Positions 2,584 through 20,152 of a stretch of 64,000 nt of DNA are shown piece after piece. The DNA is from Halanaeroarchaeum sp. HSR-CO (GTDB lineage: Archaea; Halobacteriota; Halobacteria; Halobacteriales; Halobacteriaceae), in assembly GCF_024972755.1 (NCBI RefSeq), contig NZ_CP087724.1, positions 248,001 to 312,000 on the forward strand, written 5' to 3'. The notes below the pieces were generated by a model. It made no database searches. It was given only the letters and a program-made list of their open reading frames with translations, and had not been told where the DNA came from. Made by a program: the position numbers and the translations under genes. Each line of letters starts with the position of its first letter. Position 1 is the stretch's first letter.

Positions 2584-2585
2584 GA

Positions 2586-3757: not shown

Positions 3758-3763
3758 GGCGAT

Positions 3764-4608: not shown

Positions 4609-4610
4609 GT

Positions 4611-5657: not shown

Positions 5658-5740
5658 TCGTCGCCACCCCCAGAAACGACCTGTTCGGCGCGTTTGCGCT
5701 CCCGTTCGTCCATCTCCTCGACCTCGGTGTTTGCCTTCAT
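5654..5740 (-). CDS. 28-residue charged microprotein
   Basis: A tiny gene reading MKANTEVEEMDERERKRAEQ and then a Gly/Asp end. Its ATG overlaps the stop of the gene before it (ATGA), and its stop overlaps the GTG start of the gene after it (GTGA). Both overlaps match the operon's style and fill what would otherwise be a gap. The peptide is one charged helix. Function unknown; it could also serve only to couple translation. Confidence 0.45.
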   Translation of the reverse strand: MKANTEVEEMDERERKRAEQVVSGGGDE

Positions 5741-5949: not shown

Positions 5950-5952
5950 GGG

Positions 5953-6672: not shown

Positions 6673-6675
6673 CGA

Positions 6676-7179: not shown

Positions 7180-7181
7180 GT

Positions 7182-7472
7182 TCAGTCACCTCCGAAGTTC
7201 CGGACGGTGGATTTCACGCCGACCCGCTCGGCGAACTTGTCCGCGGTGTAGAGGCCACCGCCGATCTGGATCTCCCGGGTGTATGCCGGCGAGTAGCTGG
7301 CCCCGAGCATGACGAGGAGGCCATACACCTCGTCGGGGAGGTCGTAGGGCGAGTTCGGTTCGATCACGTTGCGAGCGACGGTCCCAGCCATGAAGGCCGC
7401 GAAGACCGCGAGAATCTGCATCCACTCCTCGGTGTCGAGGAGGGTCTCGAATTGGGGTTGTAGTTCTGGCAT
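7182..7472 (-). CDS. small virion membrane protein (VP12-like position)
   Basis: This 96-residue protein has two hydrophobic stretches, residues 18-37 (MQILAVFAAFMAGTVARNVI) and 50-61 (YGLLVMLGASYS), followed by a Gly-rich, polar C-terminus. It is the first gene after a promoter-bearing gap and precedes the two capsid genes. SH1 VP12, a small membrane protein, is encoded at the same place. Homology not tested. Confidence 0.55.
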   Translation of the reverse strand: MPELQPQFETLLDTEEWMQILAVFAAFMAGTVARNVIEPNSPYDLPDEVYGLLVMLGASYSPAYTREIQIGGGLYTADKFAERVGVKSTVRNFGGD

Positions 7473-7500
7473 GCTACAGCCAGACCCTTACAGACGGCCC

Positions 7501-7508
7501 GTAAAAGG
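7501..7508 (-). promoter_or_regulatory. TATA-like element for the capsid gene block
   Basis: On the minus strand the sequence cgccttttacgg places a ccttttac box about 32 bases before the ATG at 7472. This is the only sizeable gap (7473-7557) inside the structural operon, so it probably carries an internal promoter that gives high expression of the capsid genes. Confidence 0.45.
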
Positions 7509-7557
7509 CGAGCAACCGGGAGATTGCCCCGATTCGCGTCAGATTACGTAACCTTAC

Positions 7558-7692
7558 TCACCACCGTTCGAGCAGGCGGCCGATGACCTCCGGTTTCGAG
7601 GGTTCGTAGCCCTTTCGCTCGGTGAGTTCTTGCTGAATTTCTCGAAATCGATCGGCACGGTCGCCGGACAGGGTGATTCGTTCTCGGGTCAT
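7558..7692 (-). CDS. 44-residue ribbon-helix-helix-like protein
   Basis: The sequence opens MTRERITLSGDRADRFREIQ and ends in KPEVIGRLLERW: a short strand followed by two helices, the outline of a small ribbon-helix-helix DNA-binding protein. The ATG overlaps the stop of the ATPase gene by one base (TGATG); a longer upstream start would run through the ATPase gene and is unlikely. It could be a regulator of the capsid promoter that follows it, which is an inference from position. Confidence 0.5.
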   Translation of the reverse strand: MTRERITLSGDRADRFREIQQELTERKGYEPSKPEVIGRLLERW

Positions 7693-8465
7693 CAGAACGG
7701 CTGCCGCAGTTCGTGGTCTGAACCGCCGTAATGGGGGCTCTGCATGTCGATATTCGCCGAGTTCTTCCGGTGCATCGTTCCCGAGTCGTCGCTGTAAATC
7801 CATTCGGACATGACAACCTGGCCGGCTTCCTCCCGCTTTCGGAGGGGTACGGGACCGTCTTCGGGGTGATGCAGCGCTTCGGGAAGGTCGTAGATCGGCC
7901 CGTCGGCGAGCGGGTTGTGCACGGCCTCGTTGTACTCGGCACCGAGGCGGTTACGGTCGCTCTGGGACTTGAAGCCACCAAAGAGAGCGGCGTTCGTCTG
8001 CGAGATGACCGTGTTGTGCAACTCCTGGAGGCGCTGGGTGATCCAGATCGAGGAGACGCCGCCCCGACCGGTCGTCGCGAGCAGCTTGATGGCCTCCAGG
8101 AGTTTGCTTTGCTGGTCAGCGACCGAGTGCGCTTCGTCGACGACGACCAGGCCCTGACCGTCGAGCAGCCGCATCGACGCAGCAACTCGGGCGACGACTT
8201 GCCGCCAGGTGTCCTGGTCGACCGCTCGGGCGAGCACGACCGTCCGATTTCGCTGGAAGACCTGGGCCCAGGCCTGGGGCGATAGCGCCGCCTCACGGTC
8301 GCCCACGGCCACGTAGGAAGCCAGCCCGCTCTTGACCAACCCTTTGAACTCGTCCTTGTAATCCAGGATGGCGGTGTACTCGACGTCTTCGAGGTTGTTC
8401 TCGACGGTCGCCTGGCCGACGTACGATTTCCCCCAGCCCGATTGCGCGGCGATGAGCTGACGCAT
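7692..8465 (-). CDS. genome-packaging ATPase (FtsK/HerA, A32-like)
   Basis: This 257-residue P-loop ATPase has Walker A at residues 7-15 (AQSGWGKSY) and Walker B in GLVVVDEAHS (about residues 106-113). A glutamine sensor-like motif follows in SSIWITQRLQELHNT. The size and motif spacing fit the small packaging ATPases of PRD1/SH1-type internal-membrane viruses, which pump the genome into preformed capsids. The P-loop is slightly unusual (SGWGKS). It lies upstream of the capsid genes, as in related viruses, and is the strongest single piece of evidence for this virus class. Confidence 0.8.
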   Translation of the reverse strand: MRQLIAAQSGWGKSYVGQATVENNLEDVEYTAILDYKDEFKGLVKSGLASYVAVGDREAALSPQAWAQVFQRNRTVVLARAVDQDTWRQVVARVAASMRLLDGQGLVVVDEAHSVADQQSKLLEAIKLLATTGRGGVSSIWITQRLQELHNTVISQTNAALFGGFKSQSDRNRLGAEYNEAVHNPLADGPIYDLPEALHHPEDGPVPLRKREEAGQVVMSEWIYSDDSGTMHRKNSANIDMQSPHYGGSDHELRQPF

Positions 8466-8466
8466 G

Positions 8467-9036
8467 TTACTCCGCGAGTTCGTCGAGGGCGTCCTCGACG
8501 GCCTGGAAATTCGATTCGAATACCTGGCTAATGGCCGTCGCGCGGTCCCAGGCGATGACCTCCGCGACGAAGGTCCATAGGTCGACGTCGAACTGCTCTC
8601 TCACGTGGAAGTCGGCGATCTCGGCGTCGGTCATGCCCTCGACCTCCTCGGGGACGGATTCGCGGTACATCTCCGCCCAGGAACGGACCTGCTCGCCCCA
8701 CTCTTCGCCATCCATTCGAAGATACTCGACCAGGGGCTCAGACTCGTCGACGTGAGCCCCGACGACGACCTCCGCCCACCACTCAGCGAGTCGCATCTTC
8801 GTCGCCGCGTCGACGAACCCGAGAAGCATGTCCTGGCGGACTTCGACCGGCACCGGATCGAGGGCGACGTCCTGATCGTGAGCGTCGGCCACTCGGTTCA
8901 CCAGATCGACGAGGGCGGCCTCGTGCTCGGCGAGAATCCGGGTTGCAGCGACGGCCTGGGGCATCTCCGGCACGTTGACCTGCTGGGCCATCTGCATGAC
9001 TGCTTGCTCTTTCGCCGCGCTGAACGGATTACGCAT
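8467..9036 (-). CDS. viral helical protein upstream of the ATPase
   Basis: This 189-residue protein starts at MRNPFSAAKEQ, overlapping the previous stop by 8 bases; longer forms run through the neighbouring gene in another frame and are rejected. It is mostly acidic alpha helix, with no cysteine or membrane helix and several Trp (RLAEWWAEVV, EEWGEQVRSWAEMY). No family recognised. It may help packaging or scaffold assembly, since it is coupled to the ATPase gene one base away. Confidence 0.55.
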   Translation of the reverse strand: MRNPFSAAKEQAVMQMAQQVNVPEMPQAVAATRILAEHEAALVDLVNRVADAHDQDVALDPVPVEVRQDMLLGFVDAATKMRLAEWWAEVVVGAHVDESEPLVEYLRMDGEEWGEQVRSWAEMYRESVPEEVEGMTDAEIADFHVREQFDVDLWTFVAEVIAWDRATAISQVFESNFQAVEDALDELAE

Positions 9037-9544
9037 CGCCCTCACCTCCGGCGACGTCGTCGGCCACTCTCTCGAGGAAGTCGGTTTCGGTAACCAGGAC
9101 CGTGCCGGCGATGACGAGCGACCCAAAGAGGATCTGCTGTCCGGGATCCATCTCGCCCATGTCGCGCTCGGCGGCCCACTCGTCGACCGCCTCGTCGAGA
9201 CCCAGGTCGCGGGCCATCGCTTCGGGGTCGGTGCCCTCGATCTCCCCGCCCTGGTGCCGGACGACCGTCGACAGGGAGGTATCCAGGGTCCGGACGTACA
9301 TCTCGCCCCAACCGACGCCACCCGTCGGACTGGCGGGCTGTGCCGCCTCCTCGTCGTTCTGATTATCGCTCTCGTCGGTTTCTTCGTCCTGGTCGTCGGA
9401 GCCGGCCCCGGCGGCCGCCTCGATCTCGTCAGCGACCGTCGAGAGGTCGGCCATTTCGTCGCTCTCGATCTCCGGGACATCCTCGTCCTCGGTGTCGGGC
9501 TCGGGCTCCGGAGCGTCGACGTCCTCGGTCTCGGCGGCGCTCAT
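9029..9544 (-). CDS. acidic viral membrane-associated protein
   Basis: In this 171-residue protein, residues 1-70 are extremely acidic (Glu/Asp-rich, disordered). A folded-looking region then leads to one hydrophobic helix at about residues 140-155 (QQILFGSLVIAGTVLV) and a short acidic tail. It overlaps the genes on both sides by 4 and 8 bases. Probably a virion membrane protein. Confidence 0.55.
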   Translation of the reverse strand: MSAAETEDVDAPEPEPDTEDEDVPEIESDEMADLSTVADEIEAAAGAGSDDQDEETDESDNQNDEEAAQPASPTGGVGWGEMYVRTLDTSLSTVVRHQGGEIEGTDPEAMARDLGLDEAVDEWAAERDMGEMDPGQQILFGSLVIAGTVLVTETDFLERVADDVAGGEGDA

Positions 9545-10332
9545 GCACCCACCCCCTCGGCAGCAATGAGCCCGGCACCGCCGGTCGCGACGTCGCCAGC
9601 GTCCTGGCCGTCGTCGACGTCCTCACCGGTTACCGCTGGCGCTCCCTCGGATTCTTGAGATGTCTCGCCCTCGTCGTCTCCCATGTAGCGGTAGAGCAGG
9701 GCCAGGACCACCGCCAGACTGACCAGGAGGGCGATGGTCGTTTTATCGACCGATGGAACGAGCGCCCCGACCGCCCCTGAAAGGGGCCCTTGAGCGCCCT
9801 CGGAAGGGCCCTCGTCGTCGCCCTTCGGGTCGCTGCCGTCGCTGGCTTTGCCTCCCTCGTCGTCGCTCTCCTCGTCGGAGGGGGAACGACCGCCCTCACT
9901 ACCGCCCTCGTACTGCGCTCGTTGGCGCTCGATCTCGTCCTCGGTTGGCATGTCGTCCTCGTCGGGTGCGCTTTCAGGGCCCTCCTCGGGGCCCTCGGGG
10001 GCGGTCTCCGACTCGCTGCCGTCCCCGGCTTTGCCCCCTTCGTCGTCGGTCTGTTCGTCGGTCGATTCTGACGACCCATCGCTATCGCCCTCGGTAGCGG
10101 GGCTTTTTGCCGCTTCCGCCCCTCCCTCGGGGCCCTCGTCGGCGCTCTCCGGGTCGCTGCCGTCGCTGGCTTTGCCTCCCTCGGGCGGGTCTTCGGGTGC
10201 CTCTTCGTCGAGGCGGCCTCTGATAGCGGCCCAAGAGGGGTGGTCGTTGCTGGCGTTCACGTGCCCCTGGAGATTGCTCGCGGCTGGGAAGTTGCGACCG
10301 CACTCCGGACACTCGATGGCTGTATCACTCAT
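9541..10332 (-). CDS. zinc-finger, acidic-repeat, membrane-anchored viral protein
   Basis: This 263-residue protein has three parts. Residues 8-31 form a C2H2 zinc finger (CPEC, then LQGHVNASNDH). Residues 45-180 hold three loose acidic repeats, each around DDEGGKASDGSDP and EGPEEG. Near residues 195-215 there is one transmembrane helix (TIALLVSLAVVLALLYRYM), followed by an acidic and then Gly/Ala-rich end. Coupling a nucleic-acid-type finger to a membrane anchor through a long acidic arm is unusual. It might tether the genome to the internal viral membrane, which is inference only. Start and stop overlap the neighbours (ATGA). Confidence 0.6.
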   Translation of the reverse strand: MSDTAIECPECGRNFPAASNLQGHVNASNDHPSWAAIRGRLDEEAPEDPPEGGKASDGSDPESADEGPEGGAEAAKSPATEGDSDGSSESTDEQTDDEGGKAGDGSESETAPEGPEEGPESAPDEDDMPTEDEIERQRAQYEGGSEGGRSPSDEESDDEGGKASDGSDPKGDDEGPSEGAQGPLSGAVGALVPSVDKTTIALLVSLAVVLALLYRYMGDDEGETSQESEGAPAVTGEDVDDGQDAGDVATGGAGLIAAEGVGA

Positions 10333-10538
10333 TCGATAACTATGTAGTTCGGTTCGATGGAGAGCCGGCCGAGATAGGCCTCGGACAGCACCCGGATTAC
10401 TTCGCCGTCGGTCGGGTCGTCGCCCCAGAGTCGGACGTCGCCCTCGATGGCCTCGACGTCCTCGGCGATCTGCTCTTTCGCATCCTCGAAGGCCTCGGTC
10501 TGACGCCCATCTGAGAGGGAAATGTGCTTGCCGCTCAT
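10329..10538 (-). CDS. small acidic viral protein
   Basis: This 69-residue protein (MSGKHISLSDGRQTEAFEDA at the N-terminus) is predicted to form a helix followed by a short helix-strand C-terminal part ending in EPNYIVIE. ATGA overlaps join it to both neighbours. The C-terminal GEVIRVLSEAYLGRL could be a small DNA-binding helix pair, but this is weak. Function unknown. Confidence 0.55.
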   Translation of the reverse strand: MSGKHISLSDGRQTEAFEDAKEQIAEDVEAIEGDVRLWGDDPTDGEVIRVLSEAYLGRLSIEPNYIVIE

Positions 10539-11293
10539 GTGTTCAGGTCCGCTTTCGTGACTACCTCGCCCCCGAGTTCGTCGAATTCGAGGGGGTCCTG
10601 TCCGTACTGGTCGCGGATTTCGTTGATAGCGGCTGCCGCCTCCCGTGCCTGGGCGAGTCCGGCCTTGTACTTCGTCCACTGGCTGCTCAGGCCCTGGTAG
10701 ACCGGTCCCGGGAGGTCGCCCGTAGACGGGTCGCCCTCGGTGTCGTCGAGAATCTTGTTCACCTGGTCGTCGGAGAAGCCACACCGGTCGGTCAGGAACT
10801 CGCAGGCCTCCGGATCGCCGTGCATGCAGTGGCCCTCGGCGTGGTCGCACTGCTCTCCCTCGGCGTGTCGGGCGGCCTTTCCGGCCTTCTCGACCGCGCT
10901 CCGGTCGGCGTCGAGGCGTTTGTCGCCATCCGCCCGCTCGTAGACGTCGCGGTGTTCGTCGACGGTCAAGGTGGTGTTGTAGTAGTCCAGCCAGTTCGAG
11001 ACGCCCCGATCGAGGGCCAGGGCCTTCACGGCCCGGGCATGCGGGACCGTCGTCTCGGTGAAGTCGATATGGTCGCGCTCGGGTTCGGTGACCGTCACCT
11101 GGCCGCTGCCAGCGGCGTGCTCGCCGCGTTCGTCCTCGGCGGCGAGTTCGGCGGCCTCGACGACACTCTCGGGGGCGTCACTCCGGAATCGAACTGTTTT
11201 CAGTCGCTTGTCGTCGTCCGGACAGAGCGCGTCGGGATACTGAAGGCGAATGAGGTCAGCCCCGCTCTTGGTGGGGAACTCGACCGTGCTCAT
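10535..11293 (-). CDS. conserved-looking viral protein with Cys/His cluster
   Basis: This 252-residue protein starts at MSTVEFPTKS; the ATG at 11293 overlaps the stop of the small upstream gene. A Cys/His-rich core at about residues 148-170 (CDHAEGHCMHGDPEACEFL, then DRCGF) probably binds zinc. The rest is acidic helix. I do not recognise the family. Its place early in the structural operon, before the zinc-finger membrane protein, suggests a virion or assembly role. Confidence 0.55.
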   Translation of the reverse strand: MSTVEFPTKSGADLIRLQYPDALCPDDDKRLKTVRFRSDAPESVVEAAELAAEDERGEHAAGSGQVTVTEPERDHIDFTETTVPHARAVKALALDRGVSNWLDYYNTTLTVDEHRDVYERADGDKRLDADRSAVEKAGKAARHAEGEQCDHAEGHCMHGDPEACEFLTDRCGFSDDQVNKILDDTEGDPSTGDLPGPVYQGLSSQWTKYKAGLAQAREAAAAINEIRDQYGQDPLEFDELGGEVVTKADLNT

Positions 11294-11424
11294 TGATCGG
11301 CCTCCTGTTTGACGCAGCACCACGGGAGCCATTCCCCATCACCAACATGCACCAACTGGCTAACATCTTCATGAATCGCACAATACACCCGCAGATATTC
11401 ACTCTCGCATCCCGTCGAAATCAT
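11290..11424 (-). CDS. 44-residue cysteine-containing small protein
   Basis: A small gene beginning MISTGCESEYLRVYCAIHED and ending near WLPWCCVKQEADQ. Start and stop both overlap the neighbouring genes in the ATGA manner, which supports it as real. Four cysteines and two histidines could bind a metal. No recognised family. Confidence 0.5.
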   Translation of the reverse strand: MISTGCESEYLRVYCAIHEDVSQLVHVGDGEWLPWCCVKQEADQ

Positions 11425-11795
11425 CGGTCACCGATCTCCGCGGCGAACTGGTCGAGTCGGTCGTTCCGGCCCTCACGGTCGGGGACCTCCTCCTCCCCAA
11501 TCCGTTCGGGTATCCACTCCGGTAACATGCCTTTGGGAATCTCCCATCCGACTGTCCCGTTTGGAAGCTCAACGATGAGCGTCTGAGACTCGTCGTCCGA
11601 TTCGGAATTATCATACACCCCTACATGGTGGTGGCCGTAGAATCCGCCGACCAGGGCAGCGAACGCGACGGCGAGCCGGTTGCGGTCCTGGTAGGCCCTC
11701 GCCCACTCGTTGGTCATGCCCGCCGTGGACGCGATCTCTTCGACGGCGCCGCGAGCAGCGCCCTCGGCGATGGCCTCCAGGGGGCTACGGCCCAT
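11421..11795 (-). CDS. viral protein of unknown function
   Basis: This 124-residue protein starts at MGRSPLEAIAEG; an in-frame ATG at 11825 would add ten residues. The N-terminal half carries an alanine-rich helix (AVAFAALVGGFYGHHHVGVY, which may touch the membrane). The C-terminal half has strand-like TLIVELPNGTVGWEIPK and a charged tail. No motif recognised. It overlaps the preceding two-helix membrane protein gene by 11 bases. Confidence 0.5.
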   Translation of the reverse strand: MGRSPLEAIAEGAARGAVEEIASTAGMTNEWARAYQDRNRLAVAFAALVGGFYGHHHVGVYDNSESDDESQTLIVELPNGTVGWEIPKGMLPEWIPERIGEEEVPDREGRNDRLDQFAAEIGDR

Positions 11796-11997
11796 GATCC
11801 AGCCTCCAGTCGTGGGTGGCTGCAAAGAGAACGGTGCCCGCAGACAACCCTGTGCCGATGATGCCTGCTATAGCCCACACCCACAGTGGGGCGGAGGTCA
11901 GTAGCTCCCAACCTACAGCCGCCATTAACCCGGTCCCCAACACGGCCACGATACCGTTCAGAACCAGCAAGAACTCCTCTGTAACCTCTTGATTCAC
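11785..11997 (-). CDS. small membrane protein with two helices
   Basis: This 70-residue protein begins at a GTG (11997), which overlaps the stop of the tiny upstream gene (GTGA). Hydrophobic helices lie at about residues 8-27 (FLLVLNGIVAVLGTGLMAAV) and 35-58 (PLWVWAIAGIIGTGLSAGTVLFAA). The two-helix hairpin form resembles a holin or a small virion membrane protein. A holin-like role would be a guess. Confidence 0.5.
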   Translation of the reverse strand: MNQEVTEEFLLVLNGIVAVLGTGLMAAVGWELLTSAPLWVWAIAGIIGTGLSAGTVLFAATHDWRLDHGP

Positions 11998-12110
11998 GGT
12001 CCAATCCCCGCGTTCACCATGTGGATTTCCTTCGCGATCTGGTGGTAGTGACCCTGGCAGCCCGGCACGGGACAAGGGACCGGGCGGTCACTCGTCGCGG
12101 TCGCCATCAT
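11994..12110 (-). CDS. 38-residue zinc-finger-like microprotein
   Basis: A tiny gene whose centre reads CPVPGCQGHYHQIAKEIH, a compact C-x4-C plus histidine arrangement compatible with one bound zinc. ATGA overlap upstream and GTGA overlap downstream support it. Its function is unknown; similar microproteins recur elsewhere in this provirus. Confidence 0.5.
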   Translation of the reverse strand: MMATATSDRPVPCPVPGCQGHYHQIAKEIHMVNAGIGP

Positions 12111-12250
12111 CGCCTCCCAAGGGCGGCACGCAACTCTTCAGCGACGGTCCCGATGGGGGAGGGAACGCTGGCGGTACCGCCGCAGTCGAAACACTTCCCG
12201 GTGGTCGCGCCGAGAGGCTTGCAGCAGGACGAACACTTCTCCCGGGTCAT
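12107..12250 (-). CDS. 47-residue zinc-ribbon microprotein
   Basis: The sequence MTREKCSSCCKPLGATTGKC followed by FDCGG gives a C-x2-C ... C-x2-C zinc ribbon, ending in a short helix (GTVAEELRAALGRR). The ATG overlaps the previous stop and the stop overlaps the next start. It could be a regulator or assembly factor; no family recognised. Confidence 0.55.
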   Translation of the reverse strand: MTREKCSSCCKPLGATTGKCFDCGGTASVPSPIGTVAEELRAALGRR

Positions 12251-12447
12251 TCGTCCTCTTCCACTCCTTCGACCTCGCCCCGGTGCTGCTCGACGGAGAA
12301 CATAGCAGACTCCGACGTGCGTTTGGCTGCGGCCGCCTCCCGTCTTGCGGATGCGGACTCCCGGTAAGCGAGATATGCGAACCCGGCGGCCATCCACAGC
12401 CCGGCCAGAATCGCCTCCTCACGGGTGATCCGTAGCAGGGTCGTCAT
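12247..12447 (-). CDS. first gene of the structural operon, small membrane protein
   Basis: This 66-residue protein has an N-terminal hydrophobic helix (about residues 11-28, EAILAGLWMAAGFAYLAYRE) and a charged, Ala/Glu-rich helical tail. It is the 5'-most gene of the roughly 10.6 kb minus-strand operon; the region upstream holds a dyad that may regulate the whole block. Confidence 0.55.
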   Translation of the reverse strand: MTTLLRITREEAILAGLWMAAGFAYLAYRESASARREAAAAKRTSESAMFSVEQHRGEVEGVEEDE

Positions 12448-12501
12448 CCCTACTCACCACCCTCGAATCTCGATTTTCTGGGTCGATGCTCGGTCAAAAT
12501 G

Positions 12502-12520
12502 GTATGCCTGGATGGCATAC
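12502..12520. promoter_or_regulatory. inverted repeat, likely operator of the structural operon
   Basis: The perfect dyad gtatgcc-tggat-ggcatac (7-5-7) lies 55 bases upstream of the first structural gene and about 115 bases before the rightward gene at 12637. A protein bound here could control both divergent transcription units. A half-site ggcata recurs at 14703-14708 beside the repressor genes. Confidence 0.5.
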
Positions 12521-12601
12521 TCCTCACATCACCGATAGAATACCGTAACCCCTCTCCGCACCGATAAGAATACAGGGGAGTCTACTACCGAGATAGCCAC
12601 A

Positions 12602-12611
12602 TACTTTACTA
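12602..12611 (+). promoter_or_regulatory. TATA element for the small gene at 12637
   Basis: The bases tactttacta are centred about 30 bases before the ATG at 12637, as expected for a leaderless haloarchaeal transcript on the plus strand. Confidence 0.45.
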
Positions 12612-12636
12612 GGAAGGCCGCTAACACCGAATTGTG

Positions 12637-12849
12637 ATGAGTGCGACGAGTCAGACGGAGATGATTGCGCAGGCCATCGAGGACGACGATCTTGTGCCGC
12701 TCGGGGAGAAGAAAGCGCAGGAGTCGGAGGGTGCGATCTACGTCCCGTATCCTCAGCCCCACGCCCGAAACCAGGGGCTCCGCCAGTCGAGTACGGTCAA
12801 AACCTACCTCCACAGTCCGACCGGGGCACTTGTCGTGATACCAAAGTGA
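12637..12849 (+). CDS. small halovirus-type protein of unknown function
   Basis: This 70-residue protein opens MSATSQTEMIAQAIEDDDLV; GTG at 12634 is an alternative start. It has a charged helix, then a Pro/Tyr-rich part (IYVPYPQPHARNQGL) and a strand-like end (TYLHSPTGALVVIPK). GC content is that of the provirus backbone, unlike the next three genes. It is divergent from the structural operon and may be an early gene. No family recognised. Confidence 0.5.
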   Translation: MSATSQTEMIAQAIEDDDLVPLGEKKAQESEGAIYVPYPQPHARNQGLRQSSTVKTYLHSPTGALVVIPK

Positions 12850-12881
12850 GTGACCGGGCTAACATGAGCCACCGACAACAG

Positions 12882-12889
12882 CTATAAAG
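12882..12889 (+). promoter_or_regulatory. TATA element of the AT-rich cassette
   Basis: The bases ctataaag lie 42 bases before the ATG at 12928, which would give a leader of roughly 15 bases containing tgaggaga, a possible ribosome-binding site. It is the only clear promoter for the three-gene cassette. Confidence 0.5.
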
Positions 12890-12927
12890 TTGAGGAGATA
12901 GAACCCACAATCACTGAATTAACTCGT

Positions 12928-13266
12928 ATGGCATTGGCATCTGCGGAAAAAACGATTGAATTGGACGAAGACGTAGACATTTCACGTCTTGCAGATACGA
13001 TAACCAGAATCCTCCATGAGTCTGAAGACATTTTAGAAGTGGAAAAAACTGAACGACCAGGGGAAATCTATATCGACGCCAATACCAAATCGACACTTTT
13101 GACTTGGGGACAAGAAATCAACATAAAAATTACACCGGCGAGAATAGTTATCAGAAGCGAATCGCCCAATCAGTGGATTGATTGGGGTCAGTCGGAAAAA
13201 ACAGCCGATAATATATATTCATATATCGAAAATTTGAGCTCCAATGATCGCACCCAAATAGCCTAA
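12928..13266 (+). CDS. AT-rich cassette gene 1, small soluble protein
   Basis: This 112-residue protein is acidic, without cysteines or membrane helices. A helix at residues 17-35 (DISRLADTITRILHESEDI) precedes strands EIYIDANTKSTLLTW, EINIKITPARIVIRSES and WIDWGQSEKTADNIYSYIE, a helix-plus-beta-sheet domain. Codon use (ata, aaa, att, tat) differs sharply from the backbone, so the gene was acquired from a low-GC source. It is followed 14 bases later by a zinc-ribbon/glycine-zipper protein and then a membrane protein in the same style. Not recognised. As provirus cargo it may act in host protection or superinfection exclusion, which is inference. Confidence 0.6.
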   Translation: MALASAEKTIELDEDVDISRLADTITRILHESEDILEVEKTERPGEIYIDANTKSTLLTWGQEINIKITPARIVIRSESPNQWIDWGQSEKTADNIYSYIENLSSNDRTQIA

Positions 13267-13280
13267 TTTATTCATAAAAT

Positions 13281-13604
13281 ATGAGAGTCTTTGTCGAATG
13301 CCCACAATGCCAGACAAAAATATATCTAGAAGATGTATACGAATCCCCGGACAAATACCCCGAAGATTTTGAATTAGAGTGTGAAAATGGCCATATTAAT
13401 ACATTCGGTAGACCCGATTTAATCGCTGAAACTGGTGTAAATTCTTCGTTGGCTGGCGCCGTCTTAGGAGGGGCTGCTGGAGCACTCGGGGGACCCTTGG
13501 GTGTCGCGCTTGGCGCTGGATTAGGCAGCATATTAGGCCAAAACCAGGATCAGGAAGATGGAGAAAAGGTGAGAAACTTCAACGAAAAGTACCCAGATTG
13601 GTGA
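13281..13604 (+). CDS. AT-rich cassette gene 2, zinc ribbon plus glycine zipper
   Basis: This 107-residue protein starts MRVFVECPQCQTKIYLEDVY. Cysteines in CPQC (residues 7-10) and in LECENGH (around residues 35-39) form a zinc ribbon. Residues 55-85 are a glycine-zipper segment (GAVLGGAAGALGGPLGVALG) of the kind found in membrane-inserting, often pore-forming or oligomerising peptides, followed by a charged tail. Zinc ribbon and glycine zipper together suggest a protein that assembles at the membrane on a signal. AT-rich like its neighbours. No named family. Confidence 0.6.
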   Translation: MRVFVECPQCQTKIYLEDVYESPDKYPEDFELECENGHINTFGRPDLIAETGVNSSLAGAVLGGAAGALGGPLGVALGAGLGSILGQNQDQEDGEKVRNFNEKYPDW

Positions 13605-13610
13605 AATATT

Positions 13611-14090
13611 ATGGATGGAACCACTCACCCGAACAATGAACCAGTATTATATATTTTTGTTAGCTTTATCATAATATTCGGTCTAGTTTTTCTTTCAAGC
13701 ATCACGGATTTAAGGGGTATGATTATAGAACAAATTTATCACATCTATATTTTAATTGTAGCTCTCATTATTGCGGTCTACCTCGTTGCTGTGGTCGATC
13801 TCGTCTCTGGAACCCCAATGTCTCATGCTGAACCCGATAGTCCGCTTGGAATTCTTTTTAGCAGAGGATTAGGCCCATTGGGTGATTTAGTAGGTGAATT
13901 ATTACAAGTACTCTTAGTAATTTCAGCAAGTAGAACCCTTACAGCGGGGATTATTCTAAATCAATGGAATCTTAACCTCCAAAAAGGAGATTATATATTA
14001 ATGGTGCTTGTCGCATTGGGACTTTTCGTTATTGGAGGCTTGCCAGTCTTTCATAGAGTCCAACAAATGCGCCATACTTGGCATAGTTAA
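13611..14090 (+). CDS. AT-rich cassette gene 3, multi-spanning membrane protein
   Basis: This 159-residue protein has hydrophobic helices near residues 12-31, 42-64, 95-115 and 124-145, with short polar loops. It begins 6 bases after the previous stop. The topology is like a four-helix effector or channel, but no motif identifies it. Base composition matches the other two genes of the cassette. It may act with the glycine-zipper protein at the membrane. Confidence 0.55.
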   Translation: MDGTTHPNNEPVLYIFVSFIIIFGLVFLSSITDLRGMIIEQIYHIYILIVALIIAVYLVAVVDLVSGTPMSHAEPDSPLGILFSRGLGPLGDLVGELLQVLLVISASRTLTAGIILNQWNLNLQKGDYILMVLVALGLFVIGGLPVFHRVQQMRHTWHS

Positions 14091-14095
14091 CAGAG

Positions 14096-14389
14096 TTAGC
14101 CAAGTACTGACCGCCGAGGAGCCTGATTGTCGGCATCGAGGTCACCGTCGAGATACAACTGGCCCCAGGTCGTGATCTCGTACATGTCGCCGTGGATCGG
14201 GGCGATGAAATCCACGTCGGCGAGCGCCCGACACCGCTCCCCGATTCTCGCCTTAGAGGCTTCGAGGTCGTGAAAAGCTGGCTCTTTGGCCATGATATGT
14301 GGCGTCGACCACCCTTCTTCTGAGAGATGTTCGAGGATACGCTCGTCAAGCTGCTGCATCCAGGTACCCGCACTCCGATACCCTCCCAT
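14096..14389 (-). CDS. phiH1-repressor-like winged-helix protein
   Basis: This protein of up to 97 residues may start at the inner MQQLDERILEHL (14359). The pattern of DERILEHLSEEGWSTP, then a recognition region with IGERCRALADVDFIAPIH and the wing MYEITTWGQLYLDGDLD, is that of the phiH1-repressor-like family, used by haloviruses and haloarchaea to control lysogeny. It follows its paralogue at a distance of 2 bases, so the two are made together. Probably binds operators in 12.5 kb and/or 14.7 kb. Confidence 0.7.
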   Translation of the reverse strand: MGGYRSAGTWMQQLDERILEHLSEEGWSTPHIMAKEPAFHDLEASKARIGERCRALADVDFIAPIHGDMYEITTWGQLYLDGDLDADNQAPRRSVLG

Positions 14390-14391
14390 GG

Positions 14392-14658
14392 TCAGGCCTG
14401 GACGCCGTTTTTACTCTCAGTGAGGTCCTCAAGTTCTCCTGCATCGACCTCTCCGTCAAGATACTTCTCTCCTTCTTCGGTGATCGAGTAAACACCGTTC
14501 GCGAAGGCGTCGAGCAGCCCGTATTTCGACAGCCGTTGGCAGCGACGACCGACATGGGCCCTCGACACACGAACGTGGTCAAAATCGGCTAATTCACCCA
14601 CTGACAGCGGTCCCTCGTTCCGTAGAGTTTCGAGAATTCGATCATCCCAAATCGTCAT
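14392..14658 (-). CDS. phiH1-repressor-like winged-helix protein (paralogue)
   Basis: This protein is 88 residues from MTIWDDRILETL; a GTG at 14694 and an ATG at 14679 lie upstream in frame. The helix-turn-helix region (LSVGELADFDHVRVSRAHVGRRC) and the wing (GVYSITEEGEKYLDGEVD) place it in the same family as the next gene. A tandem pair of such repressors could form a two-state control of the provirus. The first gene lies next to a 194-base control region with a perfect palindrome. Confidence 0.7.
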   Translation of the reverse strand: MTIWDDRILETLRNEGPLSVGELADFDHVRVSRAHVGRRCQRLSKYGLLDAFANGVYSITEEGEKYLDGEVDAGELEDLTESKNGVQA

Positions 14659-14694
14659 CCACGATGCGCTTCTACGCATACTGGGAGAATACAC

Positions 14695-14888
14695 CTTATC
14701 GGGGCATATGGCTCATTGATATTGTAAATCGGCCCCTACCGGGCAGAAAGCATTAATGCGTACATTTATGTTCACCCCGTGTAAATCCGTAATTGCGAAG
14801 CACCCACTCGGTACGTAGAAGACTCTTGTTGGCTGTAGGCGACGGGCGGTGCAGACACACCGCCCGATAAGGTGCTCGCAGAGTTGGC
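14695..14888. promoter_or_regulatory. control region between repressors and the zinc-finger gene train
   Basis: These 194 bases separate leftward repressor genes from the rightward early-type operon. A perfect 10-base palindrome, gcattaatgc, sits at 14750-14759. A minus-strand TATA-like tttacaat (14721-14728) fits a start at the GTG of 14694. A plus-strand catttatg lies near 14763-14770. The arrangement resembles a lysogeny switch. Which site binds what is unknown. Confidence 0.45.
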
Positions 14889-15077
14889 ATGAGCGAGCTA
14901 ATCGCCACGGGGAATCAACCCCGCACGACCGACCACGTACCGAACCCAGAACACTCTTTCGCCGGCGACTGCGCCGTCTGCGGTCAGTCCGCCGACGGAC
15001 TCGATGCCCGCGACGGCCGCCCGAAGTGCGAGAGACACGCGAAGCCCGCCATCGTGACGGGGGACACAGGGCCATGA
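14889..15077 (+). CDS. zinc-finger microprotein, first of the gene train
   Basis: This 62-residue protein has a CAVCG pair at residues 28-31 and a CERH pair at residues 47-50, a likely C2CH zinc site. The N-terminus is polar. It begins a chain of eight coupled genes that ends with the integrase; its stop overlaps the next ATG. Function unknown. Confidence 0.55.
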   Translation: MSELIATGNQPRTTDHVPNPEHSFAGDCAVCGQSADGLDARDGRPKCERHAKPAIVTGDTGP

Positions 15078-15166
15078 AGTCCACTGCCAAGCGGACTACC
15101 CGGCCAACTGGGCGGCCCGCGACACAACCACGACCAACGACCGCGAACGGAGGCGGGCAACAATGA
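15074..15166 (+). CDS. 30-residue basic microprotein
   Basis: MKSTAKRTTRPTGRPATQPR followed by a Thr/Gly/Gln end: strongly basic and disordered. It is supported only by the ATGA overlaps on both sides. It could bind nucleic acid or simply couple translation. Confidence 0.35.
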   Translation: MKSTAKRTTRPTGRPATQPRPTTANGGGQQ

Positions 15167-15303
15167 CCCGCGGCACCCCCTGGGGCCACGAGAAGCCCGA
15201 GCGCCGATCACGCCGCGCCCAATCGCACTACTGCCGCGAGGTCGGGAGCACGGTGTACGTCTCGAAGTTGGCGTGCCCGTACTGCCGGGGGAACGACCGA
15301 TGA
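15163..15303 (+). CDS. 46-residue zinc-ribbon-like microprotein
   Basis: The protein is basic, with HYCREVGSTVYVSKLACPYC in its C-terminal half. The CPYC pair plus the preceding His/Cys could bind zinc. ATGA overlaps tie it to both neighbours. No family recognised. Confidence 0.45.
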   Translation: MTRGTPWGHEKPERRSRRAQSHYCREVGSTVYVSKLACPYCRGNDR

Positions 15304-15395
15304 GCGCCTTCGATCACTTCGACACCGCGGAGTGGTGTTCCGACTGCCAGCGCTACCGCCTCAACTGCGTTCACATGGGGGGTGGCGACAGATGA
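15300..15395 (+). CDS. 31-residue zinc-finger-like microprotein
   Basis: The short sequence MSAFDHFDTAEWCSDCQRYR continues to LNCVHMGGGDR. CSDC and CVH could form one metal site. Start and stop overlap neighbouring genes (ATGA). Confidence 0.45.
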   Translation: MSAFDHFDTAEWCSDCQRYRLNCVHMGGGDR

Positions 15396-15580
15396 GCCGA
15401 CCAGGGAACGCCCTCGGTCTGCTCCACGGCTTGCACGCCGACGGGTGCGACGGCAAGGAGTATTCGACCGCCCGTCCGGTCGTCGTCCCTAACCCTCAGA
15501 CCGAACAGGGCGCCGAGGTCGAGGTCGTCATCATGGCGTGGTGCGGCGACTGCGGCGCCGCCGAGTGGGAGGTCGTCTGA
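15392..15580 (+). CDS. 62-residue microprotein with CxxC motif
   Basis: MSRPGNALGLLHGLHADGCD at the N-terminus; the C-terminus carries EVEVVIMAWCGDCGAAEWEV with a CGDC pair, like half a zinc ribbon or a redox pair. The first ATG that overlaps the previous stop is used. Function unknown. Confidence 0.5.
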   Translation: MSRPGNALGLLHGLHADGCDGKEYSTARPVVVPNPQTEQGAEVEVVIMAWCGDCGAAEWEVV

Positions 15581-15582
15581 CG

Positions 15583-15681
15583 ATGTGCGACCACTACGTC
15601 GTCGACGCCGACGAGCGGGGCCGCCGCGTCTGCCAGATGTGCGGGACTGTCATCGTATCGAAGGTCGGTTACGATGTCTGA
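15583..15681 (+). CDS. 32-residue zinc-ribbon microprotein
   Basis: MCDHYVVDADERGRRVCQMC followed by GTVIVSK gives Cys-x-His and CQMC, a minimal ribbon similar to ends of larger zinc ribbons. It starts 2 bases after the previous stop and overlaps the next gene by 8 bases. Confidence 0.5.
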   Translation: MCDHYVVDADERGRRVCQMCGTVIVSKVGYDV

Positions 15682-15910
15682 CGCCGCCTACCAGTACGAG
15701 GTTAAACTCTCCCGAGGGAATGGCAAGGACGATCGCGACGAGCAGAAGGTCAAGGTCTCCGCGGAGACAATTGAGGGCCTTCGGGAGAAAGTCGAGAACG
15801 CCCGAGACGAACTCGAAGCCTGGGCCGCGGACTACCGCGAGATCCAGCCGACCGAGAACCGCCACCGGATCACCGAGGACCAGTCCGAACTCGGGGAGGC
15901 CAAGCCGTGA
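15674..15910 (+). CDS. small charged protein upstream of integrase
   Basis: This 78-residue protein has a strand-like start (YQYEVKLSRGNG) and a long charged helix (ETIEGLREKVENARDELEAW). Its stop overlaps the GTG start of the integrase, so it may be an excisionase-like or accessory partner; no homology seen. Confidence 0.5.
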   Translation: MSDAAYQYEVKLSRGNGKDDRDEQKVKVSAETIEGLREKVENARDELEAWAADYREIQPTENRHRITEDQSELGEAKP

Positions 15911-16968
15911 GCCGACGCCGCAGAGAGGATCCGACCGATCTTTCACCAGCCAAGGCGGTCGAGCGTTACTTGAGACGGCGAGCACCGGATGCGACCGAAC
16001 AGAGCATTTACGGATGGGAGTACCGGCTCAAACTCTTCGTCGAGTGGTGTCAGTCGGTCGGTATCGAGACTGTCGGCGAGCTGGAGCCCTACGACCTCGA
16101 CGAGTACTACGAACTGCGGAGCGCAGAGGTCGCCCCGGCCACGCTGGAGGGCGAAATGTGGACGCTCAAGATGTACGTCGAGTTCCTCGACGACCTCGGT
16201 GCCGTCGAGGACGACCTCGCAGACGCGGTTCGAATTCCCGATCTCGACCCATCGGATCGATCGAGCGATACGAAACTCGGGACCGATCAAGCGATGGCGC
16301 TGCTTCGGCACTATCGCAACTCGGACGCCTACGGCACCCGCCGGCATGCGATTCTCGAACTCGCGTGGTTTACAGGCGCTCGACAGGGTGGGCTCCGCGC
16401 CCTCGATATCCGCGACGTCCACTTCGATGATGAGCCATATGTCTGGTTCTACCACCGGCCAGACACCGGTAGCCCGCTGAAAAACAAACTCTCGGGCGAG
16501 CGACCCGTCGGAATCAACGAAGAGACCGCGGCCGTACTGGAGAGATACATCGACAGGTATCGCTACGATGTCCATGACGACCACGGTAGGCAACCACTCT
16601 TTGCGAGCGCTCAGGGCCGTCCCACGCCCAACACGTTCCGAATCTGGACGTATATGGCGACGTTGCCCTGTCAATACGGGCCCTGCCCACACGGAAAAGA
16701 CCGACAGGCCTGTCAGTGGACGGAATACGCCCATGCAAGCAAATGCCCGTCGTCCCGGAGTCCACACCAGATACGGACGGGTGCTATCACCTGGCTTCTC
16801 AATCGAGGGTGGAATCCCGAGGACGTGGCCGAGCGGGTAAATGCATCCGTCAAAACGATCGAATCGCACTACGACAAGGCCGACCTGGACGAGCGTCGCC
16901 GCCGGCAACAGGACCGAATGGAGACGCGTCGCGATCTCGTCGAATCACTTAAGGTGACACAATCATGA
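15907..16968 (+). CDS. tyrosine recombinase (provirus integrase)
   Basis: This 353-residue integrase starts at GTG 15907. Residues 10-110 are the N-terminal core-binding domain. The catalytic domain follows, with arginine in FTGARQGGLRALD (about residue 160), the HQIR box (about residues 287-290) and the nucleophile tyrosine in ESHYDKAD (about residue 326). Between them is a cysteine cluster (CQYGPCPHGKDRQACQ, then CPSSRSPH) typical of haloarchaeal integrases and probably zinc-binding. It integrates and excises the element. The second His/Trp of the usual signature is not obvious (RVNASVKTIE), as in many haloarchaeal relatives. The gene ends next to the hairpin-rich region, where the attachment site would be expected. 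Confidence 0.85.
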   Translation: MSRRRREDPTDLSPAKAVERYLRRRAPDATEQSIYGWEYRLKLFVEWCQSVGIETVGELEPYDLDEYYELRSAEVAPATLEGEMWTLKMYVEFLDDLGAVEDDLADAVRIPDLDPSDRSSDTKLGTDQAMALLRHYRNSDAYGTRRHAILELAWFTGARQGGLRALDIRDVHFDDEPYVWFYHRPDTGSPLKNKLSGERPVGINEETAAVLERYIDRYRYDVHDDHGRQPLFASAQGRPTPNTFRIWTYMATLPCQYGPCPHGKDRQACQWTEYAHASKCPSSRSPHQIRTGAITWLLNRGWNPEDVAERVNASVKTIESHYDKADLDERRRRQQDRMETRRDLVESLKVTQS

Positions 16969-17024
16969 TGGGAACAACCCCTACTGAGAAGTACAGAAAA
17001 CCGGATAAACCAGCATCGCGCCGG

Positions 17025-17340
17025 CCCATGTTCATCCTCCGCCGCGACGACGAGCAACGCGAGTCGTCCGACGATGTGAACATGGGTCTCGGAAGACGAA
17101 GTCTTCCGGTGGCCCATTCATCCCCCACCTTTTACTGCGCTCGGTCGCGGAGCAACCTCGCTTGCAAAAGCTGTCGCGCAGGAGCAACGCTCCTGCTGGA
17201 TGTCGTCAGAAGCCTCGCTTCTGACTGCAAGCCAGACCGCAGAGCGGTCTGGCACTGCCATGAAGCTCTGCTTCGTGAACAGACCAAAAGCCGCCGTCAC
17301 CCCCTTCGGGGGTTCCTCGGCCCGAGCGCTACGCGCTCGG
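17025..17340. repeat. array of perfect short hairpins in noncoding DNA
   Basis: Within about 315 bases there are eight structures. The first is a nested stem at 17025-17086 (cccatgttca pairing with tgaacatggg, enclosing gacgac/gtcgtc). Seven perfect hairpins with 3-base loops follow: 17091-17107, 17178-17196, 17205-17225, 17231-17253, 17262-17274, 17299-17313 and 17322-17340. Stem sequences all differ; only the form is shared. Five of the six later centres are 25-28 bases apart. No convincing gene covers the 539 bases between integrase and siderophore gene. It could be a structured RNA, the end of a single-strand transposing element, or the provirus attachment region. Confidence 0.75.
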
Positions 17341-17507
17341 CGAGCGTGCTCGGCGGGTGACCGTAACCGTGTTCTCGCGAGCGAACCGAACGAGAGCCAG
17401 CGAGACGAGCGGCGCTCCGGCCTGTAGCGCCGCGAGACGTCCGATAGTGGGGACTGGCCTGCGAAGTTACACACTGGAACCGGGCTGGATCGAAACGGCG
17501 ACGGCAC

Positions 17508-19556
17508 TCACCGCTCGGCAAGTGGATTCGCGACCCGACTCGTGACGTACTCGTGGCGCTTCCCTTGCAGACGCATGGCCGTCAGCGCTTTGTGCACGGA
17601 CTCCTCGGCGAACAGCGCGGCCTCGTCGCGGTCGACCCGTGCCGTCGGGACCCCTGCAGTCCGCAGGGCGGCGAAGGTCCGCTCGGTGCGCTCGCGCACG
17701 ATCTCCCAGAGCGTGGCCTCCTCGACGTCCGTCTCGTGGGCCAGCGTGGCGATCACTTCGGCGAGGTGGTTCTGGTAGAGTGCATAGTACAGCTTCCGGT
17801 GGAGGTCGGCCTCGTCGTCGGCGTCGACGTCCGAGTCCGGGTAGGGGTCGATCCCCAGCCCGTGGTCGGCCAGACGGTCGGCGTGGACGCGAATCCCGCC
17901 GAAGTCCCTGACGAGCGTCGCGATCGGTCGACCCTCGTCTACGACGATCAGGCTGTTCTGGAGGTGGCTCTCCAGGGCGATCCCGTACCGGGTGAGCAAC
18001 TCGAGCTGGTCCGGGATAACCACGTCGGCGTACGCCGTGAGGAAGGCCCGCGCTGCGTCGGCCCGGCTGGTCGTCTCCGTCGCCCGTGCCAGGCGGTCGA
18101 CGAGCGAGACGACCAGGGGCCGGTCGGTTCCGGGGACAGTCGCGGGCAGGCTGGCGGCCACGATCGGGGTGGTGCCCGTCGTCACGAGGGGGTGGCTCTC
18201 TGGACTCTCGCGCAGGAGTCCGGCGAGGTGACGGGCGTCGTCGTAATCGGGTCCCTCACGGTGGGGGCCGCCCGGGGCGAAGTAGCCCGTCGCAGCGGGC
18301 TCGTCGAGCAGTCCCAGCCGCTCGAATGACGCCCGGTCGACGACCGCCCGCAGGAGGTCGGTGATCTGTGGCCCGTTGGTCACGGCGTTCGGTGAGAGGG
18401 TGCGGACCACGTTGGTCGTCTGGACGTCGATGGCGAGTTTGACGTGGGGCGGCGTGCCGGTCTGGTCGTCGGCCTCGAAGGGGACGACGGTACGGAGGTT
18501 GAGCTGTGGGGTGGCCGGTCGGCTGTACTCCGGGAGTACCACCACCCGGCCGTCTCGCCGCTGGTCTGCGTACCGCTCTTGGACGGTGTGATAGTACTGC
18601 CAGGGGTGGACCGGCACGACTGCGTAGTCGGCAGCCGATCCGGGGACGGCGGCTGCGAGCGCGTCGCGGAGCCCGTCGAACGTCTCGAAGAGTCGCTCGG
18701 TGAAGCGCCTGGCGCCGGTGGCTCGGGTCTCTCGGGCGACGTCACGGCGAATCCCCACGAAACGGACGTCTATCTGGCCCGTGAACTCGGCGGCGTAGGC
18801 CAGCCCGTCGGCGGCGCTCATGCCGTGACGGATCTTCGCGCTCGGGTGGAAGGGGTGGCCGTCGGTGACGATCCGCTCGAAGGCGGCCGATCTGCTGGCC
18901 GCGTGGATACCGTCTGCGATCGCCGCGGCGCCAGCGCCCGGTTCGGTGGCGGTGACGGTCCGCCCCTGCACGGTCGCGGCCAGGTGAGCGAGCGCCAGGT
19001 TGGCAACGCTCTCCGCGACCTCCGCTCGCATCGTCGCCACCTGCTCGTCATCGATGAAGGCACCCTCGCGCTCCAGGAGGTCGATCACCGCCGCTGGCCG
19101 ATCGACGGTGGGCGGGTCGTGGCCGTCGCCGGGTGTCCAGTGGCGGATAGGGCCGGCGAACCGATATCGATCGAAGCCGTGGACGGCCGCCACTGGCGCC
19201 ACGAGGACGCCGTCACTCGCCGGGAAGGGAACGAGCACCACCTCCTCGCTGGGCTCGAGCGCTCTTACCACCGTCGCGAGGACCTCGACGTCTGCCGGTG
19301 CAACCCGATCGGGGATCGTCGGTGCCGAGGGACTCGTGCGCACGGGAGTTTCGAGTCCCGCCGGTGCGCCGCGCACCACCCCGCGGACAAGCCGTTCGAC
19401 GATGTCGGTTCGTGCCGCGTCGAGGGCGCCGAAGAACCGTGCGTCCGCCGGCCCCGGCAGGTCGTTCGCGTTCGCGTAGTGAACCGCCAGGGGGAGCGCC
19501 TCCCACTCGACCGCCGTGGTGGGTGACGACGGGCCCCCGTTCTCGTGTGCCGTCAT
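17508..19556 (-). CDS. NIS siderophore synthetase (IucA/IucC family)
   Basis: This 682-residue protein joins a carboxylate (citrate-type) to an amine or hydroxylamine with ATP in hydroxamate/carboxylate siderophore assembly. Family marks are the GHPFHPSAKIRHG motif near residue 245, and ESHLQNSLIVV and VRDFGGIRV in the C-terminal half. The start MTAHENGG is used; longer frames upstream lack family sequence. A TATA-like gttatc lies about 35 bases upstream on the minus strand. It stands alone here: no partner synthetase, hydroxylase or exporter lies within the window, so it may act with genes elsewhere. The end of the gene faces the provirus hairpin array. Confidence 0.85.
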   Translation of the reverse strand: MTAHENGGPSSPTTAVEWEALPLAVHYANANDLPGPADARFFGALDAARTDIVERLVRGVVRGAPAGLETPVRTSPSAPTIPDRVAPADVEVLATVVRALEPSEEVVLVPFPASDGVLVAPVAAVHGFDRYRFAGPIRHWTPGDGHDPPTVDRPAAVIDLLEREGAFIDDEQVATMRAEVAESVANLALAHLAATVQGRTVTATEPGAGAAAIADGIHAASRSAAFERIVTDGHPFHPSAKIRHGMSAADGLAYAAEFTGQIDVRFVGIRRDVARETRATGARRFTERLFETFDGLRDALAAAVPGSAADYAVVPVHPWQYYHTVQERYADQRRDGRVVVLPEYSRPATPQLNLRTVVPFEADDQTGTPPHVKLAIDVQTTNVVRTLSPNAVTNGPQITDLLRAVVDRASFERLGLLDEPAATGYFAPGGPHREGPDYDDARHLAGLLRESPESHPLVTTGTTPIVAASLPATVPGTDRPLVVSLVDRLARATETTSRADAARAFLTAYADVVIPDQLELLTRYGIALESHLQNSLIVVDEGRPIATLVRDFGGIRVHADRLADHGLGIDPYPDSDVDADDEADLHRKLYYALYQNHLAEVIATLAHETDVEEATLWEIVRERTERTFAALRTAGVPTARVDRDEAALFAEESVHKALTAMRLQGKRHEYVTSRVANPLAER

Positions 19557-19831
19557 ATCCGCGTTCGTGCGCACCTCGCGGCTTGATGGCGATAACTCTA
19601 CCCTTTGCCGCCGGAGTCCGCCATCGCTGGGCACCTGCACTCCGGTCTGTTCACCGCCCGGTCTCGCCACTCGACAGTTCTCGGCGAGGCGCCGTCCGCG
19701 GCGGTCAAGAAATCCGTACAGATGGCCCGCCACGCGTGGGTACACAACCCGGGCGTCGCCGCGAGCCCCACACTCCTGGCGAGCGTGCATAACACGCCCG
19801 ATTGACCCCGCTCGCGGCCACCGAGGCGATT

Positions 19832-19918
19832 TCACCAGCCCAGCAACTGTCGCATGATGGCCGCTATCGCGACGAGTACGACGGCGCCGAGGCCCATCAG
19901 CAGGAATATCTCTTCCAC
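19832..19918 (-). CDS. 28-residue membrane microprotein
   Basis: From a GTG at 19918 the sequence opens MEEIFLLMGLGAVVLVAIAA and ends in a short polar tail with a tryptophan, a single hydrophobic helix. A strong TATA element on the minus strand lies 22-31 bases before the start, the exact spacing of a leaderless gene, and no other gene uses that promoter. Function unknown; such helices often modulate larger membrane proteins. Confidence 0.5.
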   Translation of the reverse strand: MEEIFLLMGLGAVVLVAIAAIMRQLLGW

Positions 19919-19939
19919 ACGCGTCGTTGGCCCGCTGGA

Positions 19940-19949
19940 TACTATAAAT
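19940..19949 (-). promoter_or_regulatory. TATA element of the membrane microprotein
   Basis: On the minus strand the bases read atttatagta, a near-consensus haloarchaeal TATA box centred about 26 bases before the GTG at 19918. Confidence 0.55.
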
Positions 19950-20152
19950 TCGTCGTACGACCGAACTCACCGTCCCGATTCCCGGACGTGGGTGTTCCCA
20001 TCGCCGTCAGCTCGCCGTTCGGACGATATTAATTAGGAACGGTTTTGTATTATCGAGCCAATACTCTGCCGGTATATGCGCCGGTCAGATGACACCCGTG
20101 CCGGCCACCAATCGGGACGAGTTCGCGCCGGTAGCCCGGGAGGGACCAACCG

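Follow-up and report, generated by a model that had tools for sequence, protein, structure and literature searches.

In the window (the whole 64 kb stretch of DNA analysed), a tyrosine integrase gene, a short copy of a tRNA 3′ end, an array of hairpins with three-base loops and a siderophore synthetase gene lie one after another, as listed below.

15907–16968, + strand: tyrosine integrase (Pfam PF00589 Phage_integrase, E 2.5e-10)
17016–17028, + strand: attachment core TCGCGCCGGCCCA, the 3′ end of tRNA-Pro(CGG) (longest exact match between tRNA-Pro and region 15500–17500)
17025–17086, + strand: long imperfect hairpin CCCATGTTCATC...GATGTGAACATGGG, from a DNA fold, directly 3′ of the tRNA 3′-end copy
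17090–17108, + strand: triloop hairpin CGGAAGAC-GAA-GTCTTCCG, perfect 8-bp stem
17124–17172, + strand: frame helix P1, CCACC-TTTT-...-GCAAAA-GCTG (lower-stem covariation, 60/64, and run lengths in relatives)
17178–17196, + strand: inserted triloop hairpin GCAGGAGC-AAC-GCTCCTGC, perfect 8-bp stem
17205–17225, + strand: inserted triloop hairpin GTCAGAAGC-CTC-GCTTCTGAC, perfect 9-bp stem
17231–17253, + strand: inserted triloop hairpin GCCAGACCGC-AGA-GCGGTCTGGC, perfect 10-bp stem
17259–17277, + strand: inserted triloop hairpin CATGAAGC-TCT-GCTTCGTG, 5 perfect bp, or 8 with one T.G
17286–17321, + strand: frame A-run 2 and P2 hairpin, AAAAGCCGCCGTC-ACCCCC-TTC-GGGGGT-TCCTCGGC (covariance model R1, 81.8 bits)
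17299–17313: TTC triloop stem, 6 bp, perfect
17322–17340, + strand: P3 hairpin CCGAGCGC-TAC-GCGCTCGG, perfect 8-bp stem
17508–19970, − strand: IucA/IucC-FhuF siderophore synthetase (PF04183, E 2.7e-56; PF06276)

The hairpin array and its tRNA neighbourhood

Seven triloop stems lie within 17090–17340, with the loops GAA, AAC, CTC, AGA, TCT, TTC and TAC, as the preliminary description had reported for the DNA near the integrase. Five of them are perfect over 8–10 bp, while the remaining two comprise 6 bp (TTC) and 5 perfect bp (TCT; 8 bp if imperfect). The stem centres are spaced 88, 28, 27, 26, 38 and 25 bases apart, so that the regular spacing of 25–28 bases first given for five stems is roughly right: it applies to four stems in a row and to the last pair, and the gaps of 88 and 38 fall outside it. 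The T-run of P1 (17130–17133) forms the gene-proximal edge and its first A-run occupies 17166–17169. The second A-run covaries with the T-run, and the − strand of 17286–17321 reads a hairpin and then a T-run.

Triloop stems of at least 8 bp number eight in the whole 64 kb window, with five of them in this 0.25 kb. In the loop-length control, no stem of at least 6 bp with an even loop length was detected in the array region, and loop lengths of 5 and 7 merely re-read the same stems. The single-strand DNA fold of 17025–17340 reached −88.3 kcal/mol, against −56.4 ± 4.2 for dinucleotide shuffles (z −7.5), and none of the 100 shuffles folded as low. A chance origin of the array was rejected on this fold energy and on the whole-window triloop control. 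A diverged coding sequence in relatives, the finding that would have spoken against the preliminary description, was not seen: the relatives are non-coding and keep the stems as pairs, for which reason the coding reading of the overlapping ORF (16965–17360) was rejected. In the relatives, moreover, unrelated DNA precedes the array, which also counts against that reading. No Rfam covariance model matched at E ≤ 1 in 16500–18000, and the search for close phage or plasmid relatives returned none, or short pieces only.

The integrase is the last gene of an integrated element and is not part of the hairpin element. The 13-bp attachment core forms the right boundary of the integrated element, and an intact tRNA-Pro(CGG), called by ARAGORN at G000:C1:245021–245094, 2.9 kb left of the window, forms its left boundary. 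The array starts ~120 bp past the integrase stop (16968); the attachment core lies between the two, which leaves the array outside the integrated element. Since the longest match between tRNA-Pro and the region falls at 17016–17028, an insertion of ~20 kb would have moved the array off its tRNA. As judged from the sequence, the array thus belongs natively to the DNA downstream of tRNA-Pro(CGG) and was displaced when a ~20 kb element integrated in the tRNA 3′ end; the insertion of this mobile element between the tRNA gene and the array is the sole reason why the array adjoins the integrase. The tRNA-Pro(CGG) is upstream of the array in genome G009 too, with ~136 bp between them, and G003 and G012 carry a shorter version of the element directly after tRNA-Pro(CGG). 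On the other side, the convergent siderophore synthetase gene ends 168 bp from the hairpin element.

The integrated element comprises positions 1–17028 of the window and G000:C1:245021–248000. It encodes mostly unknown small proteins, including DUF7389 and winged-helix-like proteins, with the tyrosine integrase at the right end. Hairpins placed like the one at 17025–17086, as well as tRNA-end duplications, were seen in other tRNA-downstream regions. At several tRNA genes the tRNA 3′ end (~11–24 nt) is repeated once or twice downstream, with a short block, composed of one arm of an inverted repeat and a triloop hairpin, separating each repeat (L058:11950–12310 on the − strand, which is C1:2246950–2247310 of the same genome; L027; L021:3256–3480; L022:1648–1900), as if small cassettes had been inserted in tandem at the 3′ end of the tRNA.

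A modular repeat family at gene and tRNA ends

On the evidence of its relatives, the array belongs, as an expanded copy, to a modular haloarchaeal family of intergenic, non-coding repeats. The nearest full-length relatives of 17110–17356 were found in two genomes from a different genus within the family (G009, 91% over 246 bp; G003, 84% over 219 bp), and matches to parts of the array occur in 46 of 59 haloarchaeal genomes. A covariance model (R1) built from the 3′ core of the element gave up to 22 matches per genome in Halobacteriaceae, with fewer and scattered matches in other haloarchaeal families. Matches were obtained in 17 genomes of a 197-genome phylum sample, all from the same order, and none outside the haloarchaea in that sample. 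Because RNAalifold recovered only the CCCCC/GGGGG stem from the core, R1 is mostly sequence-based and undercounts copies with other hairpins in the second slot. Such hairpins, other than CCCCC-NNN-GGGGG, were also found in slot 2 of L217–L264, and the real copy numbers are therefore higher. No earlier description of the family was found in open-access papers or Rfam.

A total of 87 distinct copies were read for frame, position and hairpins. The 5′ part of the frame contains a 3-base code, a T-run of 4 or 5, GC, a hairpin slot, GC and an A-run. After this first A-run, the 3′ part contains the complementary 3-base code, a second A-run, GCC..TC, a second hairpin slot (often ACCCCC-NNN-GGGGGT), TC.TCGGCC and a third hairpin. 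The parts of the frame covary as paired arms, and strongly so: the codes of the lower P1 stem pair in 60 of the 64 parsable copies, against a mean of 16 and a maximum of 28 in 2000 shuffles, and the T-run and the two A-runs share one length in 51 of 62 copies (4/4/4 in 27, 5/5/5 in 24). The second A-run, which lies outside helix P1, also changes length with the T-run and the first A-run (4/4/4 or 5/5/5), and this coupling points either to another pairing or to a copying history that the runs share.

The copies were assigned to position classes using gene calls from a simple codon-usage script. The element starts at most 10 nt from a codirectional stop codon in 43 of the 87 copies, 17 copies follow a tRNA gene (11 of them within 40 nt), and in both classes the T-run faces the gene. 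In eight copies the T-run lies 38–50 bp upstream of a divergent start codon, while 19 copies fall into none of these three classes, some owing to an uncalled gene. The divergent-start copies (L020, L028, L029, L072, L089, L121, L140 and L143) have the T-run directly outside the likely promoter, and they are placed as if respecting both ends of transcription units.

These positions bear on the suggested connection with the integrase, which did not hold, as copies follow stop codons and tRNA genes genome-wide without integrases; the idea of a hairpin-marked DNA end is left unsupported by the same placement. That the array is a set of recombination sites of the neighbouring integrase (attP arms, or folded sites like integron attC) is hardly conceivable. 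It resembles integron attC and tyrosine-recombinase att arms in being made of structure-defined DNA hairpins near a tyrosine recombinase, and the physical neighbourhood (integrase stop 16968, array from 17090) is all that speaks for such a role; unlike those sites, however, it shows no gene cassettes and no integrase dependence, and the core at 17016–17028 leaves it outside the integrated element. Furthermore, it follows tRNA-Pro in G009 and G003, and copies, by the dozen behind ordinary genes, stand behind housekeeping genes and tRNAs. The integrase link was consequently rejected, on the position of the attachment core and on the copies without an integrase.

Exchange of hairpins and the chemistry of their loops

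Comparison of orthologous gene ends indicates that the hairpins in the slots are exchanged between species with their shape kept, structure outranking sequence. When one gene end is compared across species, the frame is constant and the hairpins are wholly different yet perfectly paired, for example at thermosome-, TBP- and 2-oxoacid:ferredoxin-oxidoreductase-type genes (names from reading sequences), which agrees with the earlier claim that form is conserved over sequence. A comparison of strains for hairpins that appear or vanish had been proposed as a check, and both kinds of change were seen at orthologous gene ends; one such end carries one, three or at least five hairpins (L079, L109, L122). 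Between the array in the window and the G009 copy, the loops changed at 10 of 18 sites and the stems at 1 of 98 (p 5e-9). A second copy in the genome of the window, behind tRNA-Pro(GGG), has three pairs changed on both sides, while the stems of the G003 copy have decayed, with 10 of 49 pairs no longer Watson–Crick. The decayed array of G003 (L023:3231–8499) lies in an island downstream of tRNA-Val, between genes for a 944-aa PHP/AAA ATPase-like protein and a type I restriction-modification HsdM-like protein (gene names from reading sequences).

At one orthologous end (gene B) the element was present in 11 genomes and absent from 8, including two congeners of carriers (G020, G014), although most congeners have it, and the element is not essential at gene ends whose orthologues in congeners are without it. 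Such presence and absence within a genus would be expected of a selfish mobile palindrome, a small non-autonomous DNA of REP-, MITE- or double-hairpin-like kind with no host job, which survives beside stop codons and tRNAs as insertions elsewhere are removed. The occurrence of the same four-hairpin block behind tRNA-Pro(CGG), tRNA-Pro(GGG) and tRNA-Val and in a defence island also fits this reading, which we nevertheless consider unlikely. It is opposed by the exactness with which copies begin no more than 10 nt from the stop codon, their T-run towards the gene, and by a frame conserved across families. No clear terminal inverted repeat or target duplication of the kind that marks MITEs was seen, though the element ends vary: empty sites are present, and no shared terminal repeat could be fixed. 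In addition, no Y1 (TnpA-REP/RAYT) transposase (PF01797) was found in the element-rich genomes G006, G013, G019, G022, G024, G030, G041 and G054, which carry 11–22 model matches each, and an HUH/RAYT transposase was rejected as the mover because it is absent from several element-rich genomes.

Stable loops of DNA mini-hairpins follow the GNA rule. When distinct stems of 7 bp or more were counted, the copies had 114 triloops and 7 tetraloops; the closing pair was C–G in 112 of the 114 triloops, and 75 loops were GNA or its complement TNC. With each stem counted once and P2 left out, C–G closing was retained in 56 of 58 and GNA/TNC in 60% (chance 12.5%). In three element-bearing genomes, GNA/TNC loops accounted for 40 of 71 intergenic triloops vs 24 of 177 coding ones (p 3e-11), and in the coding DNA of element-bearing genomes loop lengths are even, GNA/TNC is at chance and there is no triloop excess. 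Two haloarchaea without model matches had 2 of 11 GNA/TNC loops in intergenic DNA, whereas G029, also without a match at the cut-off used, still had 8 of 14. Both GNA and TNC loops are present on both strands, and the sense-strand counts of G.T vs A.C mismatches were 5 vs 8 and 3 vs 3 (13 and 6 informative mismatches, and hence of little power). C–G-closed GNA loops of the GCGAAGC type are extraordinarily stable DNA mini-hairpins (PMC10527192), and the C–G-closed GNA/TNC triloops of the family are the signature of such hairpins, with no RNA strand bias. Whereas d(GCGAAGC)-type hairpins with C-GNA-G loops are known in vitro, loops with the same closing pair and of the same class are here enriched in genomes. 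Because of these triloops and because G.T shows no excess over A.C, a DNA-level rather than an RNA-level structure is favoured.

An RNA-level element in the 3′-UTR, which would protect mRNA or tRNA precursors or bring about termination in the manner of REP or intrinsic terminators, seems decidedly unlikely. The sense-strand orientation after genes and tRNAs and the compensatory changes in the stems would suit it, as would the report from Haloferax of a hairpin at which 59% of transcripts ended (PMC7237163). On the sense strand, however, the T-run precedes the hairpins, so that most of the structure lies beyond the likely stop site, and the prevalence of triloops over tetraloops, the lack of a G.U excess, the GNA and TNC loops on both strands and the lack of an Rfam family all disagree with it. 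The structured RNA among the first suggestions for this array is accordingly not favoured.

Repeated small inverted duplications, another of those suggestions, may be one way in which new hairpins arise. In a further reading, the hairpins would be a functionless mutational by-product of fold-back (snap-back) synthesis or template switching at fragile gene ends, and quasi-palindrome correction would keep the stems perfect. Such a process would account for perfect stems whose sequence is arbitrary and whose loops are minimal, and for a hairpin number that varies at one orthologous end; C–G-closed GNA/TNC loops would be good self-priming seeds, and Pol theta is known to synthesise stem-loops starting from two terminal base pairs (PMC11292364). 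This account is very improbable, as it leaves the conserved frame, the pairing of the lower-stem codes and the start just after stop codons unexplained, and no triloop excess occurs in the coding DNA of the same genomes, though selection could remove triloops there.

A possible two-way transcription boundary

The element may act, at the ends of transcription units, as a transcription boundary that works in both directions and contains DNA hairpins, a proposal in which our belief and our doubt are about evenly balanced. Its gene-proximal T-run would end the transcript of the gene, and the A-runs, being T-runs on the other strand, would allow RNA polymerase to be stopped from both sides. In a Haloferax volcanii reporter, 95% of transcripts are terminated by T5C (PMC7237163), and T-runs of only 4 are probably weaker. 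The hairpins would act as DNA, in the form of mini-hairpins extruded in single-stranded or supercoiled DNA, which could pause the polymerase or absorb supercoils and torsion. Fold-back copying might renew the stems, or copies might recombine with one another, and any stem would do because only the form matters. The fuller proposal, with doubt outweighing belief, is tentative: a DNA element defined by its form, with a covarying frame at transcription-unit ends and interchangeable C–G triloop hairpins renewed as whole units, which would provide two-way boundaries at the DNA level.

Archaeal U-tract terminators such as T5C of Haloferax likewise place a T-run a few nt after a stop codon or tRNA end, as was found in the copies within 10 nt of a stop codon (43/87) and within 40 nt of a tRNA (11). 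Unlike in those terminators, the T-run of the element makes up one arm of a helix that covaries, a hairpin array comes after it, and T-runs occur on both strands. A bacterial intrinsic terminator differs as well, since the T-run of the element precedes the hairpins on the gene strand and the order of hairpin and then T-run is found only on the opposite strand.

The nearest kind of known element is REP/BIME. These (GTAG and CGTC families) are many-copy, short intergenic palindromes at the 3′ ends of transcription units, often clustered and with 2–3 base loops in many families, for which roles in termination, mRNA stability and supercoiling have been suggested (PMC3733652). The haloarchaeal element shares with them the many intergenic copies near gene 3′ ends, yet it consists of a conserved frame with exchangeable hairpins of unrelated sequence. 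Not only this swapping of whole hairpins within a frame but also the missing tags and transposase set it apart: no GTAG or CGTC end tag and no constant tetranucleotide tag was found on the hairpins of the 87 copies, the CGTC inside slot 2 being internal and varying with the slot.

The double-hairpin and palindromic selfish repeats of mitochondria (fungi, Volvox, cryptophytes), as far as the titles and abstracts of papers on them go, are also intergenic and apparently movable and keep their form while their stems vary, but they belong to a different replicon. These elements are not known to have a stop-codon or tRNA-end frame.

At this locus, a confusing feature beside an integrase is explained as a displaced tRNA flank, and between the once-adjacent tRNA-Pro and the convergent siderophore gene a two-way boundary would be useful. 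If the proposal is true, the family would be an archaeal counterpart of REP/BIME that obeys a different rule, under which any folding stem serves and the loops are set by DNA mini-hairpin chemistry. It also suggests that, at the gene ends of living genomes, what is selected or generated is DNA able to form hairpins and not RNA.
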